Source: Frankia alni
Lineage (GTDB): Bacteria > Actinomycetota > Actinomycetes > Frankiales > Frankiaceae
Reading direction: 5' to 3'
NCBI GenBank assembly: GCA_026225295.1
Contig: JAMFSN010000161.1
Location: 1-35,647, forward strand
DNA: 35,647 bases
Position 1 is the first letter of the stretch; each line of letters starts with the position of its first letter. The notes under the pieces are model-generated. The model was not told the origin of the DNA. It searched no databases and saw only the letters and a list, made by a program, of their open reading frames with translations. The position numbers and the translations under genes were made by a program. Below are positions 22,333 to 27,757 of this stretch, piece by piece.

Positions 22333-22701
22333 CTACAGCAGCGACAGATCCCCGGTGATCGCGTCCACCGCGTCGGCCGGCGCCGGTCCGATCGCCGCGC
22401 AGGTCACGGTGCCCGGCTCGAGTTGGGTATAGCCGGCGTCGGCGATGCGGACGACCGGCAGGCCGGCCGCGCGGGCCCGGTCGCACACGGCGTCCAGCTC
22501 GTCGAGACTGCCGACCCGCAGCGCCACCTTGGGCTGTCCGTCGGCGCGCCACTCCGCCAACCAGGCGGGATGGGTGCGGGCCACCTCGGTGACCCCGTCG
22601 ACGGCGGCGTGGGCGCCTTGGGCGACGCTCTTGCCCGGGCCCATCCGGAGGTCCTTGCGGACCACGATGACCTGCTTGTACGCCCAGCGGCCGCCGTTCA
22701 C
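22333..22701 (-). CDS. Pth2-type peptidyl-tRNA hydrolase
   Basis: Releases tRNA from prematurely dropped peptidyl-tRNA. It has 122 residues and is the archaeal/eukaryotic-type Pth2 fold rather than bacterial Pth. KQVIVVRKDLRMGPGKSVAQGAHAA is the N-terminal signature with the catalytic Lys/Asp region. PVVRIADAGYTQLEPGTVTCAAIGPAP and ITGDLSLL are the C-terminal signature. Start GTG 22701 overlaps the acyl-CoA dehydrogenase stop by GTGA, so it is the last gene of that run. The coupling to metabolic genes may be incidental. Confidence 0.93.
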   Translation of the reverse strand: MNGGRWAYKQVIVVRKDLRMGPGKSVAQGAHAAVDGVTEVARTHPAWLAEWRADGQPKVALRVGSLDELDAVCDRARAAGLPVVRIADAGYTQLEPGTVTCAAIGPAPADAVDAITGDLSLL

Positions 22702-23876
22702 CGGTCGGGCCTGCGGAGCCGGGCGCGCCGCACGAGCCCCCGGGCGATGACGGTGCGCTGGATCTCGTTGGTTCCTTCGCCGACGATCATGAGCGGGGCG
22801 TCGCGAAAGTAGCGCTCGACGTCGAACTCGGTCGAGTAGCCGTGGCCGCCGTGGATCCGCAGCGCGTCCAGGGTCACGGTGGCGGCCATCTCGGAGGCGA
22901 ACAGTTTGGCCATGCCGGCCTCGAGATCGGCCCGTTCGCCGGAGTCGAAGCACTCCGCGGCGTGCAACGTGAGTTGCCGGGCCGCTTCGATCCGGGTGGC
23001 CATGTCGGCCAGATAGTTGCCGATCGACTGGTGCTCCCAGATCGGCTTACCGAACGAGTGCCGGTCCTGCGCGTACTGCAGCGCATCCTCGAACGCGGCC
23101 CGGGCGACGCCCAGGGCCCGGGCGGCGACCTGGATGCGCCCCACCTCGAGCCCGGCCATCATCTGGCTGAAGCCGCGTCCCGGGACGTCCCCGAGAATCG
23201 CGTCGGTGGGCGCCCGGTAGTCGTCGAAATGCAGTTCGCAGCTTTCCACCCCCTTGTAACCGAGCTTCGGCAGATCCTTGGAGACCTCGAAGCCGGGACC
23301 CTTCTCAGCCAGCAGGATGCTGATCCCGCGGTGCGGCGGGTCGGCCGCCGGATCGGTCTTGCACAGCAACGCGACCAGGCCCGACCGGCGGGCGTTGCTG
23401 ATCCACGTCTTGGTCCCGTTCACCCGCCACCCGGCGCCGTCGCCCTCGCCGTCGCGGCGGGCCACGGTCCGGATGGCCTGCAGGTCGGAACCGCCACCCG
23501 GCTCGGTCAACGCCATGGTGGCCCGCAGTTCGCCGGTCGCCATCCGGGGCAGGTAGCGCTCGCGCTGGGCCTCGGTCCCGAAGCGCAGCAGCAGCTTCGA
23601 GACGACCGAATGGCCGCCGAACGCGCCGGCCAGGCTCATCCAGCCCCGGGCCAGTTCCTCGGTGACCATCGCGTAGCAGGCGGTCGAGACGCTGAAATCG
23701 CCGTAGGGCGGGTCGATGGCCAGTCCGAAGACCCCCATCTCCTTCATCCCGGCGATCAGGTCCTCGGGGTAGGTGTCGGCGTGTTCGAGCTCGCGGGCGA
23801 CCGGGCGGACCCGGTCGTCGACGAACTGGGCCACGAGCCGGACGATCTCGTCCTCCTCGGCGCTCAACCGGGCCAC
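22698..23876 (-). CDS. Acyl-CoA dehydrogenase
   Basis: FAD enzyme that introduces an alpha,beta double bond into an acyl-CoA and passes electrons to ETF. It has 392 residues, the usual length. MALTEPGGGSDLQAIRT and TKTWISNAR are the FAD/substrate blocks. GRIQVAARALGVARAAFEDALQYAQDR and IHGGHGYSTEFDVERYFRDAPLM are C-domain signatures. IVGEGTNEIQR has E367 at the catalytic-base position. The GTG start has AAGGAG 7 nt upstream. A 22-bp duplicated element with a TATGGT box precedes it. It follows the carnitine-acyltransferase gene by 118 bp, so the substrate may be the acyl chain handled there, which is inference. Confidence 0.93.
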   Translation of the reverse strand: MARLSAEEDEIVRLVAQFVDDRVRPVARELEHADTYPEDLIAGMKEMGVFGLAIDPPYGDFSVSTACYAMVTEELARGWMSLAGAFGGHSVVSKLLLRFGTEAQRERYLPRMATGELRATMALTEPGGGSDLQAIRTVARRDGEGDGAGWRVNGTKTWISNARRSGLVALLCKTDPAADPPHRGISILLAEKGPGFEVSKDLPKLGYKGVESCELHFDDYRAPTDAILGDVPGRGFSQMMAGLEVGRIQVAARALGVARAAFEDALQYAQDRHSFGKPIWEHQSIGNYLADMATRIEAARQLTLHAAECFDSGERADLEAGMAKLFASEMAATVTLDALRIHGGHGYSTEFDVERYFRDAPLMIVGEGTNEIQRTVIARGLVRRARLRRPDR

Positions 23877-23994: not shown

Positions 23995-25836
23995 TCAGGT
24001 GACCTCGGAGGCCAGCAGGTCCTGCAGCTCGCCGACCGCCTCCCGCAGTCGGTCGGCGAACCGGTGCATCTCGGCGGCGACCGGCGCCGGGGTGCTCAGG
24101 TACAGGTTGAGGCGGTCGGGCAGCAGCACGTAGGCCACCCCGATGCAGGTGCTGCTCGTCGACCCGAACCCGAAGTACTGGATGTTGGTCGACGGTGCCG
24201 AGCTGGTGCTCAGGTAGTCGTCCCGCATGACGGTCCACCCCGGGCTGTCGTACAGGGGCAGGGGGCCGGTCACTCCCAGCTCCGCGCCGCGCCGCTTCGC
24301 GATGAGCTGCAGCTCCCACAGGTGCTGCTCCGGGGCCTGCCCGGACTGGCACTGCTTGGCCCGCGCGACGTGCGCGGCGGCGGCGGCCCGGAACGCGGCC
24401 CGCCGGCTGCCCGGGTCGGCGTCGGCATCGTCCATGACCGCGACAAAGGCCAGGACCTCGGGGGTGACGACCCGCATCGCCTCCGTCCGGCCCCGCCGGT
24501 ACTGGCGGGTCGCGATGGATTCGTAGGTTGCGCCGGTGATGCCCTTGGCCCGTCGGTGAGCGAGCTGGTAGGCCAGCTGCGCGAACGCGTCCGGCGACAT
24601 CCGCAGTTCCTTGGCCCGGTTCCCGCCGAAATCGGTGAACGACAGAACGGACGTCGCGGTGGCCTCCCCGTAGGCCGCGAACGCCTCGCCGGCCGCCCGT
24701 ACGTCGGCCCGCAGGGCGTCGTCGAGCCCGAACTCGATCGCCTCGATCTTCGGCGGGCCGGCGGACCGGGCGCCCGAGCGGGCCGCGTGTTCCTCGCCCG
24801 GGGTATCGAGCACCGCGTCGATGAAGCTGAGCACCGTCGTGCCGTCCAGGCCGCAGTGCTCGATGTTGATGCCGGCCGCGCCGTCCGCGAACACGATCAG
24901 TGAGACGGCCTTGTCGAACCACCGGTTGGCGCTGTCGCCGTACAGCAGGTTGTCACAGGCGGTCAGGTGGTCGGCCGGCGCGAAATCCTCCAGGCACAGG
25001 CAGAACAGCGCGGTCTCGATGTCGTCGAGCGCGGCCGGGTTGCCCGGGTCGGCGGCCAGCAGCGTGGCCCGGCTGGTCGCCCAGGCGGCCCGGGCCTTGG
25101 TCGTGAGGTGCCCGACCGTGGTGCCGGCGGCGGCCCGCCCGGCGCCGGACGCCAGGACCGCGCGCAGCCCGGCGGTCAGGTCGTCCAGCGAGTGGGGCCG
25201 GCCGTCGGGGCCCAGCACGTCCATCCGGAACAGGTTCCCGCGGAAGAACACCACGATGTGGCGGGCGTCGGAGGGCCCCGGCCACTCAGCGGTGTACGGG
25301 GTACGGACGGTGTCCTGCTCAAGCCCCGGTAGCCGGGTGCTGGAGAACAGGAACTTGTTCTGCTCCATCGACAGGGCCTGCCCCCGGGACAGAATCGGGG
25401 GAATGGCTTCGTCGTCGAGCCGCAGTTTGTAGTCGACGGCGCCGGCGATGAGGCCGGCGGCCCGGTCGACCTGCGTCTGGCCGGAGTCCCGGAACAGGAA
25501 GATGAAGTTCGCGTTGAGCGCGATCCGGTCGCGTCGCCCCAGGTAGCGGGCCGGCCAGAACGTGTCGAGCCAACTGTGGACCCCCGGGCTCCCGTCGTAC
25601 GTTTCGAGCGCCGCGTGTAGCGCCCGGCCGGGACCGCCCGGGCGCTGGAAGTCGGTCACCGCCGTCCGGGTGGCGGCCAGCTCCTCGTCGCTCAGCAGCG
25701 GCGCGCACCAGGTGAGGAAGCGCGCGCAGGTGTCATCGAGGCTCGGCAGCGGAACCCGCGGCAGCCGGTCCTCATTCTCGAACGTGTGCGGCTCAACGGT
25801 GTGCGGGGCCAGTTCCGGACCGCTGTTCAATGTCAT
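23995..25836 (-). CDS. Choline/carnitine O-acyltransferase family protein
   Basis: Transfers acyl groups between CoA and the hydroxyl of carnitine, choline or a related betaine. It has 613 residues from the ATG at 25836, matching eukaryotic carnitine acetyltransferase in length. NRWFDKAVSLIVFADGAAGI leads to the catalytic EH pair (H327). TYESIATRQYRRGRTEAMR (about 437-455) is the family block near the acceptor site. Y541 and STS at 543-545 match the carnitine-carboxylate-binding region. Such complete proteins are uncommon in bacteria. The open frame extends to 25995, but the added 53 residues look non-coding. The ATG is preceded only by CGGGG. It lies 68 bp after a methyltransferase gene and two genes after an oxygenase, suggesting its acceptor is made locally (inference). 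Confidence 0.93.
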   Translation of the reverse strand: MTLNSGPELAPHTVEPHTFENEDRLPRVPLPSLDDTCARFLTWCAPLLSDEELAATRTAVTDFQRPGGPGRALHAALETYDGSPGVHSWLDTFWPARYLGRRDRIALNANFIFLFRDSGQTQVDRAAGLIAGAVDYKLRLDDEAIPPILSRGQALSMEQNKFLFSSTRLPGLEQDTVRTPYTAEWPGPSDARHIVVFFRGNLFRMDVLGPDGRPHSLDDLTAGLRAVLASGAGRAAAGTTVGHLTTKARAAWATSRATLLAADPGNPAALDDIETALFCLCLEDFAPADHLTACDNLLYGDSANRWFDKAVSLIVFADGAAGINIEHCGLDGTTVLSFIDAVLDTPGEEHAARSGARSAGPPKIEAIEFGLDDALRADVRAAGEAFAAYGEATATSVLSFTDFGGNRAKELRMSPDAFAQLAYQLAHRRAKGITGATYESIATRQYRRGRTEAMRVVTPEVLAFVAVMDDADADPGSRRAAFRAAAAAHVARAKQCQSGQAPEQHLWELQLIAKRRGAELGVTGPLPLYDSPGWTVMRDDYLSTSSAPSTNIQYFGFGSTSSTCIGVAYVLLPDRLNLYLSTPAPVAAEMHRFADRLREAVGELQDLLASEVT

Positions 25837-25859
25837 CCCCGGGTTCGAAGGAGTGGCTG

Positions 25860-25880
25860 TGATCGGTGATCGGTGATCGG
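25860..25880. repeat. Triple TGATCGG heptamer in the intergenic leader of the acyltransferase
   Basis: TGATCGG occurs three times without spacing, at 25860, 25867 and 25874. On the minus strand it reads CCGATCA x3, starting 24 nt before the acyltransferase ATG. Phased 7-bp repeats with a GATC core could be a regulator site or a slippage product. Confidence 0.8.
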
Positions 25881-25904
25881 TCTGTCGGGCGGTGGGGCGC
25901 GGGT

Positions 25905-26786
25905 TCAGGCCGCGCGGGGGGAGCCGTGGGCCGTGAGACCGGGTACGGCGGCGAGATCGGGCAGGGCCGGTCGGTCCGCGCCTTTCGGCCGGCATACGTA
26001 CAGCTGGGCATAGAGCCAGCCGTCGGTCTCCAGCCCGGTCGGATCCACCCCGACCGTCGACAGCGTATCGAGTACCTCCGCCTGTTCAGCGGCGGAGGCG
26101 AACCGTCGCTGGCGGAACATCCCGTCCAGGCGGACGGTGTCGTAACCCAGGCCGGCCAGGCTTTCGGCGAACGGCTCGAACGGAAACATCCGCAGCACGA
26201 AATGCGCCATCGGTGGCCGGCGCTCGCCCTGGCTGGCCACGATCCGGGCAATCGTGCGGTCGGTGACGTAGCCGACGCAGCCGGTCGAGATGACCAGGTC
26301 GGCATCGGCCAGTTTCCGGCGTTGCCCGTCGGACGGGTCGCGCGTTTCCAGATCGGCGTGCACCGCGTCATCCAGGAATCCGGCCGACACGGCGTAGGAA
26401 AGGGCCGGCCGGGAAGTGTCCAGGCCGACGAACCGGGTTCCCGGCAGCCGGTTGCGGGTCCTGACCAGGGCCCGGTCCCGGCTGAGGCGGTCGTTCAGGG
26501 TCGCCGTGCGCGCGTCGTCGCCGCAGTAGCGGTCGTGCAGATCGGTCATGGAGACATCGCATTTGAGCAATGCGGCGTTTATGCCGTAGGAACAGCCGAC
26601 GTCCAGCACGGTGGTGGGGGCATCGGCGGCCGGCCGTTGCTGGTGGTCGATGAGTTGGGCAAAGATCGGCTTGGCCAGTTCGGGGATGCAGTAATCGAGC
26701 CCGCGCAGCGTGCTGAAGTAATCGTGCGGATCGGGCTGGACGTAGATGTGGTCGAACGATGCTTTCCCGGTGGCGTCCAGTTGCAT
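25905..26786 (-). CDS. Class I SAM-dependent methyltransferase
   Basis: Methyltransferase of 293 residues. LDVGCSYGINAALLKCDVSMTDL at about 61-83 is SAM motif I with the acidic residue ending beta-2. FVGLDTSRPALSYAVSAGFLDDAVHADLE and ADLVISTGCVGYVTD form the next blocks. FVLRMFPFEPFAESLAGLGYDTVRLDGMFRQRRFAS probably caps the substrate site. The ATG at 26786 has AGGAG 9 nt upstream. The open frame continues to 27359 in a non-coding style and is rejected. The gene is 95 bp after a 2-oxoglutarate oxygenase and 68 bp before a carnitine-type acyltransferase. N-methylation of an amino acid is the attractive guess; the sequence does not prove the substrate. Confidence 0.85.
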   Translation of the reverse strand: MQLDATGKASFDHIYVQPDPHDYFSTLRGLDYCIPELAKPIFAQLIDHQQRPAADAPTTVLDVGCSYGINAALLKCDVSMTDLHDRYCGDDARTATLNDRLSRDRALVRTRNRLPGTRFVGLDTSRPALSYAVSAGFLDDAVHADLETRDPSDGQRRKLADADLVISTGCVGYVTDRTIARIVASQGERRPPMAHFVLRMFPFEPFAESLAGLGYDTVRLDGMFRQRRFASAAEQAEVLDTLSTVGVDPTGLETDGWLYAQLYVCRPKGADRPALPDLAAVPGLTAHGSPRAA

Positions 26787-26881
26787 GGGTGGCGCTCCTG
26801 CTCGGGCTCGGGTGGGCAACGGGTTGACATCGCCGGCCGGGGTCGGGGTCGGCGTCGGGCCGGTCGGGGCGACGGGCCGGA

Positions 26882-27757
26882 TCAGTCCAGAAGCTGATCG
26901 ACCCGGGCCGCGTCCCCCTGGGCGGCCCGGTGGACGGGCAGCACCCGGCCGAACAACTGGCGGGTGCGGGCGACGCTGCCGACCACCCCGGGTTGCTCGC
27001 TGTACGCGAAGATCGCCGAATGGCGCTCGGTCGGGCCGCTCACCGCACTGACCCGGTGCATCGAATAGCGGCCCTTGAACAACTGGAGGTCGCCGGGGCG
27101 CAGGGTGAGCCGGTGGACCCGGTCGGGGCGCCGGCCGGCCAGCACGTCGCGCACGTCGCCGAAGTTCTCGGCGTGCGCCGAGCGGAGGCCCGGGCAGTAC
27201 TCGAACCAGCCCCCGACCGCCGCGGCCTGGGTCAACAGGCTCACCGTGAACTCGTTGGTGTCGAAGTGCCACGGGTGCTCCAGCCCGGGGCTGATCACGT
27301 TGAGGCAGAGTCCGGACAGCGGGTCGGCCAGTTCGTGGACCGCCGGCAGGTCGAAGCACCCGGCAATGAACCGCTGGAACAACGCGCTCCGGTAGAGCCG
27401 GTGAATGGCCAGGTCATCGGGGAGGCGGTCCCGGGCCACAAACGCATTTCCGCGTTGCATCGTGACCCGGCCCGGGTGATCTTCCGGCAGGTCGGTCCCG
27501 ATCTCGATGTTGTACGCATTTACCGTGGCGACGTCGTAATAAGCGAAAGGCGTGGTGGCGGCGCACTCCGACCGCAGCGGGGCACGGTGGGAATCGCGAA
27601 TGAAGCCGGGTAACACGCTGCAACCGCTGTCATTCAGCTCCCGCCGGGCCCGATCGACCGCGCGCAGCCAGCTGTCACTTTCAGGCCGCGCGAGCGGGTA
27701 ACGCTCCGCGTCCACCGTTTCGTTGAGCAGGTGGGCCTCGGATGTGCTAATGAACAT
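26882..27757 (-). CDS. HalD/BesD-like Fe(II)/2-oxoglutarate-dependent oxygenase
   Basis: Non-haem iron oxygenase of 291 residues. HPWHFDTNEFTVSLL supplies the H164-x-D166 part of the iron triad, LFKGRYSMHRVSAV supplies the distal H234, and R245 in GPTERH can bind 2-oxoglutarate. The order LCLNVISPG, HFDTNEFTV, WFEYCPGLR and YSMHRVS resembles the HalD/BesD family, whose characterised members act on free amino acids. The iron-ligand Asp points to hydroxylation, because halogenases replace it with Gly or Ala. The ATG at 27757 directly follows CTGGAGGAG, unusually tight spacing. It is the first gene of a five-gene minus-strand run. The family call is from recognition only; the substrate is unknown. 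Confidence 0.8.
   Translation of the reverse strand: MFISTSEAHLLNETVDAERYPLARPESDSWLRAVDRARRELNDSGCSVLPGFIRDSHRAPLRSECAATTPFAYYDVATVNAYNIEIGTDLPEDHPGRVTMQRGNAFVARDRLPDDLAIHRLYRSALFQRFIAGCFDLPAVHELADPLSGLCLNVISPGLEHPWHFDTNEFTVSLLTQAAAVGGWFEYCPGLRSAHAENFGDVRDVLAGRRPDRVHRLTLRPGDLQLFKGRYSMHRVSAVSGPTERHSAIFAYSEQPGVVGSVARTRQLFGRVLPVHRAAQGDAARVDQLLD

Follow-up and report, generated by a model that had tools for sequence, protein, structure and literature searches.

A conserved oxygenase-methyltransferase-acyltransferase cassette of actinobacteria and its possible product, an acylated carnitine analogue

Three neighbouring genes on a contig of Frankia alni encode an oxygenase (OXY), a methyltransferase (MT) and a carnitine-type acyltransferase (CAT), and the question they raise is whether they form one pathway and, if so, what that pathway would make. 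The window, i.e. the whole stretch of DNA analysed (35,647 nucleotides), is one entire contig (C228) of a source genome of 412 contigs and 5.8 Mb that is 97.6% complete. All positions given for the window refer to this stretch, and all features of the three genes lie on its minus strand.

A three-gene unit shared across actinobacterial genera

An earlier description made from the letters alone (the sequence-only reading) had placed an oxygenase, a methyltransferase and a full-length choline/carnitine O-acyltransferase consecutively on the minus strand, and open reading frames, profile matches and predicted folds confirm this arrangement. The genes are transcribed in the order OXY, MT and CAT, with gaps of 95 bp between OXY and MT and 68 bp between MT and CAT. 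OXY (26882-27757, 291 amino acids), a predicted hydroxylase of the HalD/BesD-fold Fe(II)/2-oxoglutarate (2OG) oxygenases, starts with the ATG at 27757, with GGAGGAG a short way upstream. MT (25905-26786, 293 amino acids), which we assign to the class I SAM-dependent methyltransferases, starts with the ATG at 26786, with AGGAG upstream; a longer frame beginning with a GTG at 27359 is spurious. CAT (23995-25836, 613 amino acids) is the only PF00755 protein of the source genome, and a 666-amino acid frame from 25995 was set aside because its extra leader falls outside the family match.

We scanned a CAT alignment against 84,980 species genomes (GTDB), which yielded 435 stretches encoding relatives, and inspected the best 80 of these 435. 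Adjacency in this window only, which the sequence-only reading had named as a ground for abandoning it, is not what we found: OXY adjoins CAT in 80 of the 80 other loci, and MT lies between the two in 74, the genera represented being Streptomyces, Nocardia, Actinomadura, Saccharopolyspora, Amycolatopsis, Actinokineospora, Gandjariella and Frankia. When the flanking proteins of 97 loci were clustered, no further gene family was common across genera beside the cassette, indicating that the unit consists of OXY, MT and CAT. Thus, the acyl-CoA dehydrogenase gene that follows CAT after 118 bp in the window (22698-23876), the GNAT gene and the DUF2332 gene were rejected as pathway members, none of them being conserved beside the cassette; a 31% identical dehydrogenase is found near one S. 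nanshensis locus. The cassette neighbourhoods gave no pointer to a phenotypic role.

The three genes also come and go together. Within the order to which the window belongs, 30 of the 35 genomes have MT, and PF00755 occurs in exactly these 30, nearly all MT loci having OXY and CAT beside them in the same order; the genomes G024, G031 and G034, which lack CAT, also lack MT in a profile search. PF00755 is rare in the class (41 of 394 genomes), and 30 of the 41 genomes come from the family of the window. In the other 11, OXY adjoins CAT in nine, with MT between them in seven of those nine, and the two genomes without an OXY neighbour encode a divergent CAT of ~30% identity. Further, MT and CAT occur as a single uninterrupted open reading frame in three lineages, namely Frankia (L097, L109 and genomes G022, G023 and G026), Streptomyces (S. 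specialis, L091) and a pseudonocardiad (Gandjariella thermophila, L114). The view that unrelated genes became neighbours by chance is refuted by these MT-CAT fusions and by a gene order kept in 74 of 80 loci (Frankia, Streptomyces, Nocardia, Actinomadura, Saccharopolyspora and others) between flanks that are not conserved. The earlier proposal that the three genes belong together is thus upheld by conserved adjacency, gene fusion and joint absence.

Within the unit, the firmest pair is OXY and CAT, with MT as the third member. In Streptomyces (247 genomes), an MT ortholog is present in 21 of the 28 genomes with CAT versus 1 of the 219 others. All seven remaining CAT genomes have an unlinked second MT homologue, versus 45 of 240 others (Fisher p = 1.3e-5, kinship ignored); in five of these seven strains, the gene lies in one and the same chromosomal context, so that these strains are not independent and are probably related, and we therefore regard the unlinked methyltransferase as consistent with a need for methylation and not as proof of it. 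The lone exception among the 247 genomes is G499, in which an MT ortholog (55% identical; L189:1610-2440) has neither OXY nor CAT nearby. Amycolatopsis anabasis has OXY and CAT, and an MT homologue is absent genome-wide, which suggests that methylation may be optional or the task of another enzyme. Genome G025, from the family of the window, has two complementary partial loci (L081:8009-11175 and L089:5998-8696), one combining OXY and CAT with a decayed MT and the other MT and CAT without OXY. The whole cassette was absent from plasmids in the places examined, though relatives of OXY and MT turned up there.

The acceptor and acyl sites of CAT

CAT spans the whole PF00755 profile (positions 1-574 of 574) with 533 bits against a cut-off of 22.3, and its best PDB profile is that of human carnitine acetyltransferase (CrAT; 326 bits), with lower scores for CPT2, octanoyltransferase and choline acetyltransferase (280 bits). 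His-327 of the EHCGLDG motif (24856-24858) aligns with the catalytic histidine of CrAT and is invariant in 70 of 70 cassette CATs, as is the STS motif (Ser-543, Thr-544 and Ser-545; 24202-24210). The tyrosine and threonine of the carboxylate site are likewise retained in 70 of 70 (Tyr-438 and Thr-451, corresponding to CrAT Tyr-452 and Thr-465).

CrAT Arg-518 contacts the carboxylate of carnitine, and in octanoyltransferase replacement of the matching Arg-505 reportedly led to a Km for carnitine over a thousand times higher. The equivalent of this arginine, by which the carnitine-specific acyltransferases (CrAT, CPT and COT) are recognised, is glutamine in all 70 cassette CATs (Gln-504 in the window; 24325-24327). 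Two bacterial CATs outside the cassette keep the arginine, and the substitution thus marks the cassette subfamily and, judged from the alignment, indicates an acceptor that is probably not ordinary carnitine. Choline acetyltransferase, which has asparagine where the arginine would be, resembles CAT in being a full-length PF00755 protein that likewise lacks this arginine; CAT differs from it in retaining the carnitine-type threonine (Thr-465 position) and in being closer to CrAT.

These features bear on whether the cassette makes carnitine itself, by methylating a GABA-type amine to gamma-butyrobetaine and hydroxylating this to carnitine, which would be acetylated. Such a route would use the same three reaction types, and CAT is most like carnitine acetyltransferase and keeps the Tyr-452 and Thr-465 positions and the STS motif; however, the glutamine in 70 of 70 sequences at the carnitine-carboxylate position and the placement of OXY in the alpha-amino-acid HalD group, not the BBOX/TMLH group, make de novo carnitine synthesis very unlikely. 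We also rejected the use of ordinary carnitine taken up from outside, since the source genome contains no transporter of the BCCT type, the type searched for (as distinct from ABC-type uptake). Carnitine uptake genes nearby had been named earlier as evidence that would count against an analogue, and this point is now answered for BCCT carriers. The acceptor first envisaged, a carnitine analogue in place of ordinary carnitine, is probably correct given the glutamine and the missing BCCT carrier.

The residue at the gate of the acyl tunnel is methionine in CrAT and glycine in CPT2. In alignment with CrAT Met-564, it is phenylalanine in 70 of 70 cassette CATs (Phe-555; 24172-24174), which suggests that the acyl groups transferred would be short and makes long-chain transfer unlikely. 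A use of PF00755 in biosynthesis, not in fatty acid transport, has a parallel in the cAT release domains of fungal polyketide synthesis (luteodienoside A, PMC10901484); in contrast to these domains, CAT stands alone, has an acyl pocket of the short-chain type and is encoded at a locus without a polyketide synthase. Separately, we note a different carnitine-type acyltransferase in Streptomyces (L179:112-8797), 29% identical and with the arginine kept, which follows a 1423-amino acid NRPS-like frame and an aminotransferase-like frame and precedes two methyltransferase-like frames; this may be a separate natural-product cluster.

The oxygenase, its relatives and the methyltransferase

OXY passes the family profile PF23169 (HalD) with 33.8 bits against a cut-off of 26. 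Its AlphaFold model (pLDDT 91.8) finds as best PDB folds with Foldseek HalB, HalD, HalA, a BesD-type lysine hydroxylase and BesD (E values of 3e-14, for HalB, to 2e-12, at ~15% identity), and the matched HalB and HalD structures hold lysine or ornithine; by sequence alone, solved structures are matched only weakly (profile E 6e-4). The iron site consists of His-164-Phe-Asp-166 (HxD; 27260-27268), invariant in alignments A4 and A7 with His and Asp also invariant in A1, and of the second histidine, His-234 (27056-27058), invariant in all three alignments. These ligands are unchanged across 39 aligned cassette OXYs and in relatives as distant as 30% identity. Arg-245 (27023-27025), invariant in the same three alignments, is the presumed ligand of the 2OG carboxylate by analogy with the fold family. 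The halogenases of the HalD/BesD group have an HxG iron site that leaves space for the halide, and on the conserved HxD of OXY we rejected a halogenase; with its invariant HxD and His ligands, OXY should hydroxylate. The HalD/BesD-like oxygenase proposed at the outset is therefore borne out by profile and fold, and we predict from sequence and model that OXY is a hydroxylase of the free-amino-acid HalD/BesD fold. It shares with the halogenases and hydroxylases of this family the fold, the 2OG and iron site and an above-threshold PF23169 score, and differs in its low identity, HxD motif, longer C-terminal tail (with a conserved RTxQxFGR) and gene context.

OXY relatives outside the cassette are found in betaine- or sulfonium-type settings. 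In Caballeronia (L036:6963-13092), an operon-like array comprises a LysR gene, an OXY relative (44% identical), a DddP-like M24 enzyme and an OpuAC-type glycine-betaine ABC importer. OXY relatives (39-42%) adjoin M24 proteins with DddP as the best NCBIfam model in Pseudomonas and in two other, actinobacterial, genomes as well; these M24 neighbours score 240-428 bits, below the cut-off of 600 for DddP, a DMSP lyase. In a member of the Rhodobacteraceae, a 35% identical relative is found with an MttB-type methylamine/betaine methyltransferase (demethylase) and an FAD-dependent oxidoreductase. In four actinobacterial genomes, relatives (33-36%) directly adjoin the formaldehyde-activating enzyme Fae (PF08714; L205:2277-3604, L206:7587-8920, L207:5541-6956 and L209:7184-8502), suggesting that these Fe/2OG oxygenases demethylate and pass on formaldehyde. 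All of these settings are of the methylated-amine or sulfonium type, and the relatives in betaine contexts are only 30-44% identical to OXY.

The best-known acceptors of the choline/carnitine acyltransferase family are quaternary ammonium alcohols. The contexts of the OXY relatives are an independent line of support for a substrate of the betaine or sulfonium type and, taken with these onium acceptors, make a methylated zwitterion the likeliest class of substrate. The same contexts suggest that methylation comes before the OXY step, in the manner of eukaryotic carnitine synthesis; on this point we depart from the sequence-only reading, which had hydroxylation come first.

MT falls below every Pfam cut-off (Methyltransf_12 at 20.4 bits versus 30), and its assignment to the class I SAM methyltransferases comes from the SAM-binding motif I, VLDVGCSYG (26583-26609; conserved in alignments A3 and A5), and from a predicted Rossmann-like fold (AF2 model, pLDDT 87.9) whose Foldseek matches are class I methyltransferases. 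Neither sequence nor structure comparison found a close characterised relative, and the structural neighbours comprise carboxyl, N-, S- and C-methyltransferases with no clear winner. MT relatives are also carried on Rhizobium and Roseibium plasmids (L178:7953-10400 and L038:7992-10441), where the next two genes encode conserved proteins, the second of them a relative of arylmalonate decarboxylase (PF17645); OXY and CAT are not annotated there.

Two alternatives to a betaine arise from MT. First, MT could methylate oxygen, carbon or a carboxyl group (e.g. to a methyl ester), and the product would be an O-acylated derivative of a hydroxy amino acid. The spread of its structural neighbours allows for this, and the change of Arg-518 to glutamine would suit an acceptor with a masked carboxylate at this position; the clustering of OXY relatives with betaine- and sulfonium-type genes and the acceptors best known for the acyltransferase family speak against it, and we hold this route to be rather doubtful. 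Second, MT could S-methylate a thioether amino acid, which OXY would hydroxylate and CAT acylate to give a compound of the DMSP type. DddP-like genes adjoin OXY relatives, and the methionine S-methyltransferase MmtN figures in the structural hits of MT with a relatively high TM-score, but many methyltransferases score alike, the DddP-like genes stay under the curated cut-off, and M24 enzymes cleave many substrates. We consider a sulfonium product unlikely.

The proposed pathway and its meaning

Overall, we propose, with a probability of about one half, that the cassette is a self-contained pathway to an O-acylated, hydroxylated and methylated zwitterion, i.e. an analogue of carnitine and not carnitine. 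The proposal builds on sequence and structure comparison of the enzyme families, the hydroxylase-type ligands, the conserved unit, the MT-CAT fusion and the lost carnitine-carboxylate arginine. The substrate of MT would be an amino acid or an amine, which it would most likely methylate on nitrogen to yield a quaternary betaine. OXY would introduce a hydroxyl at a carbon of this methylated compound or, alternatively, of the compound from which it is made, and CAT would esterify the new hydroxyl with a short acyl group (probably acetyl) taken from acyl-CoA. This last step may be reversible, as it is in carnitine acetyltransferase. As a concrete candidate, we guess at 4-hydroxy-N-trimethylornithine or 5-hydroxy-N-trimethyllysine, because ornithine and lysine are both ligands of HalD-type enzymes and because both compounds carry the Me3N-CH2-CHOH-CH2 head of carnitine with the carboxylate farther off. 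Against the proposal stand A. anabasis, with its OXY-CAT pair and no MT homologue, the distance of the betaine-context relatives from OXY, the Fae pairing, which suggests demethylation instead of carbon hydroxylation for some relatives, and an MT whose relatives do not distinguish N- from O-, S- or carboxyl methylation. The pathway first put forward is thus partly supported: the gene linkage is strong, the oxygenase has a HalD/BesD fold with hydroxylase ligands and the acceptor is probably not carnitine, and the substrate, the methylated atom, the acyl chain length and the step order are inferred.

The eukaryotic carnitine pathway (TMLH and BBOX) with carnitine acetyltransferase shares with the cassette a methylated amino acid, hydroxylation by Fe/2OG enzymes and O-acylation by PF00755. 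In contrast, the cassette is bacterial and has a single oxygenase of the HalD/BesD group and one small methyltransferase, without aldolase or aldehyde dehydrogenase, and its CAT lacks the carnitine-carboxylate arginine. We know of no report of carnitine synthesis in bacteria. The literature searched, which covered few subscription papers, held no description of an OXY-MT-CAT cassette, in agreement with the sequence-only reading, which knew of no described cluster with this make-up; the enzyme families are known, and their combination is apparently widespread and undescribed.

We tentatively raise the possibility that an acyl carrier resembling carnitine, or an acyl-betaine solute, has gone unrecognised in many actinobacterial species. 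Its synthesis by three enzymes would have no relation to the eukaryotic hydroxylases, and the compound might buffer acetyl-CoA or serve as a protective or signalling metabolite. The cassette is small enough to be expressed whole and put to a direct test, and with OXY it provides a new free-substrate hydroxylase. Compact and widely kept, it covers the same three kinds of reaction as carnitine chemistry, but with other enzymes. If the proposal is true, it would add a new class of bacterial metabolites in the well-studied Streptomyces, Nocardia and Frankia and explain the role of a carnitine-type acyltransferase in these bacteria.
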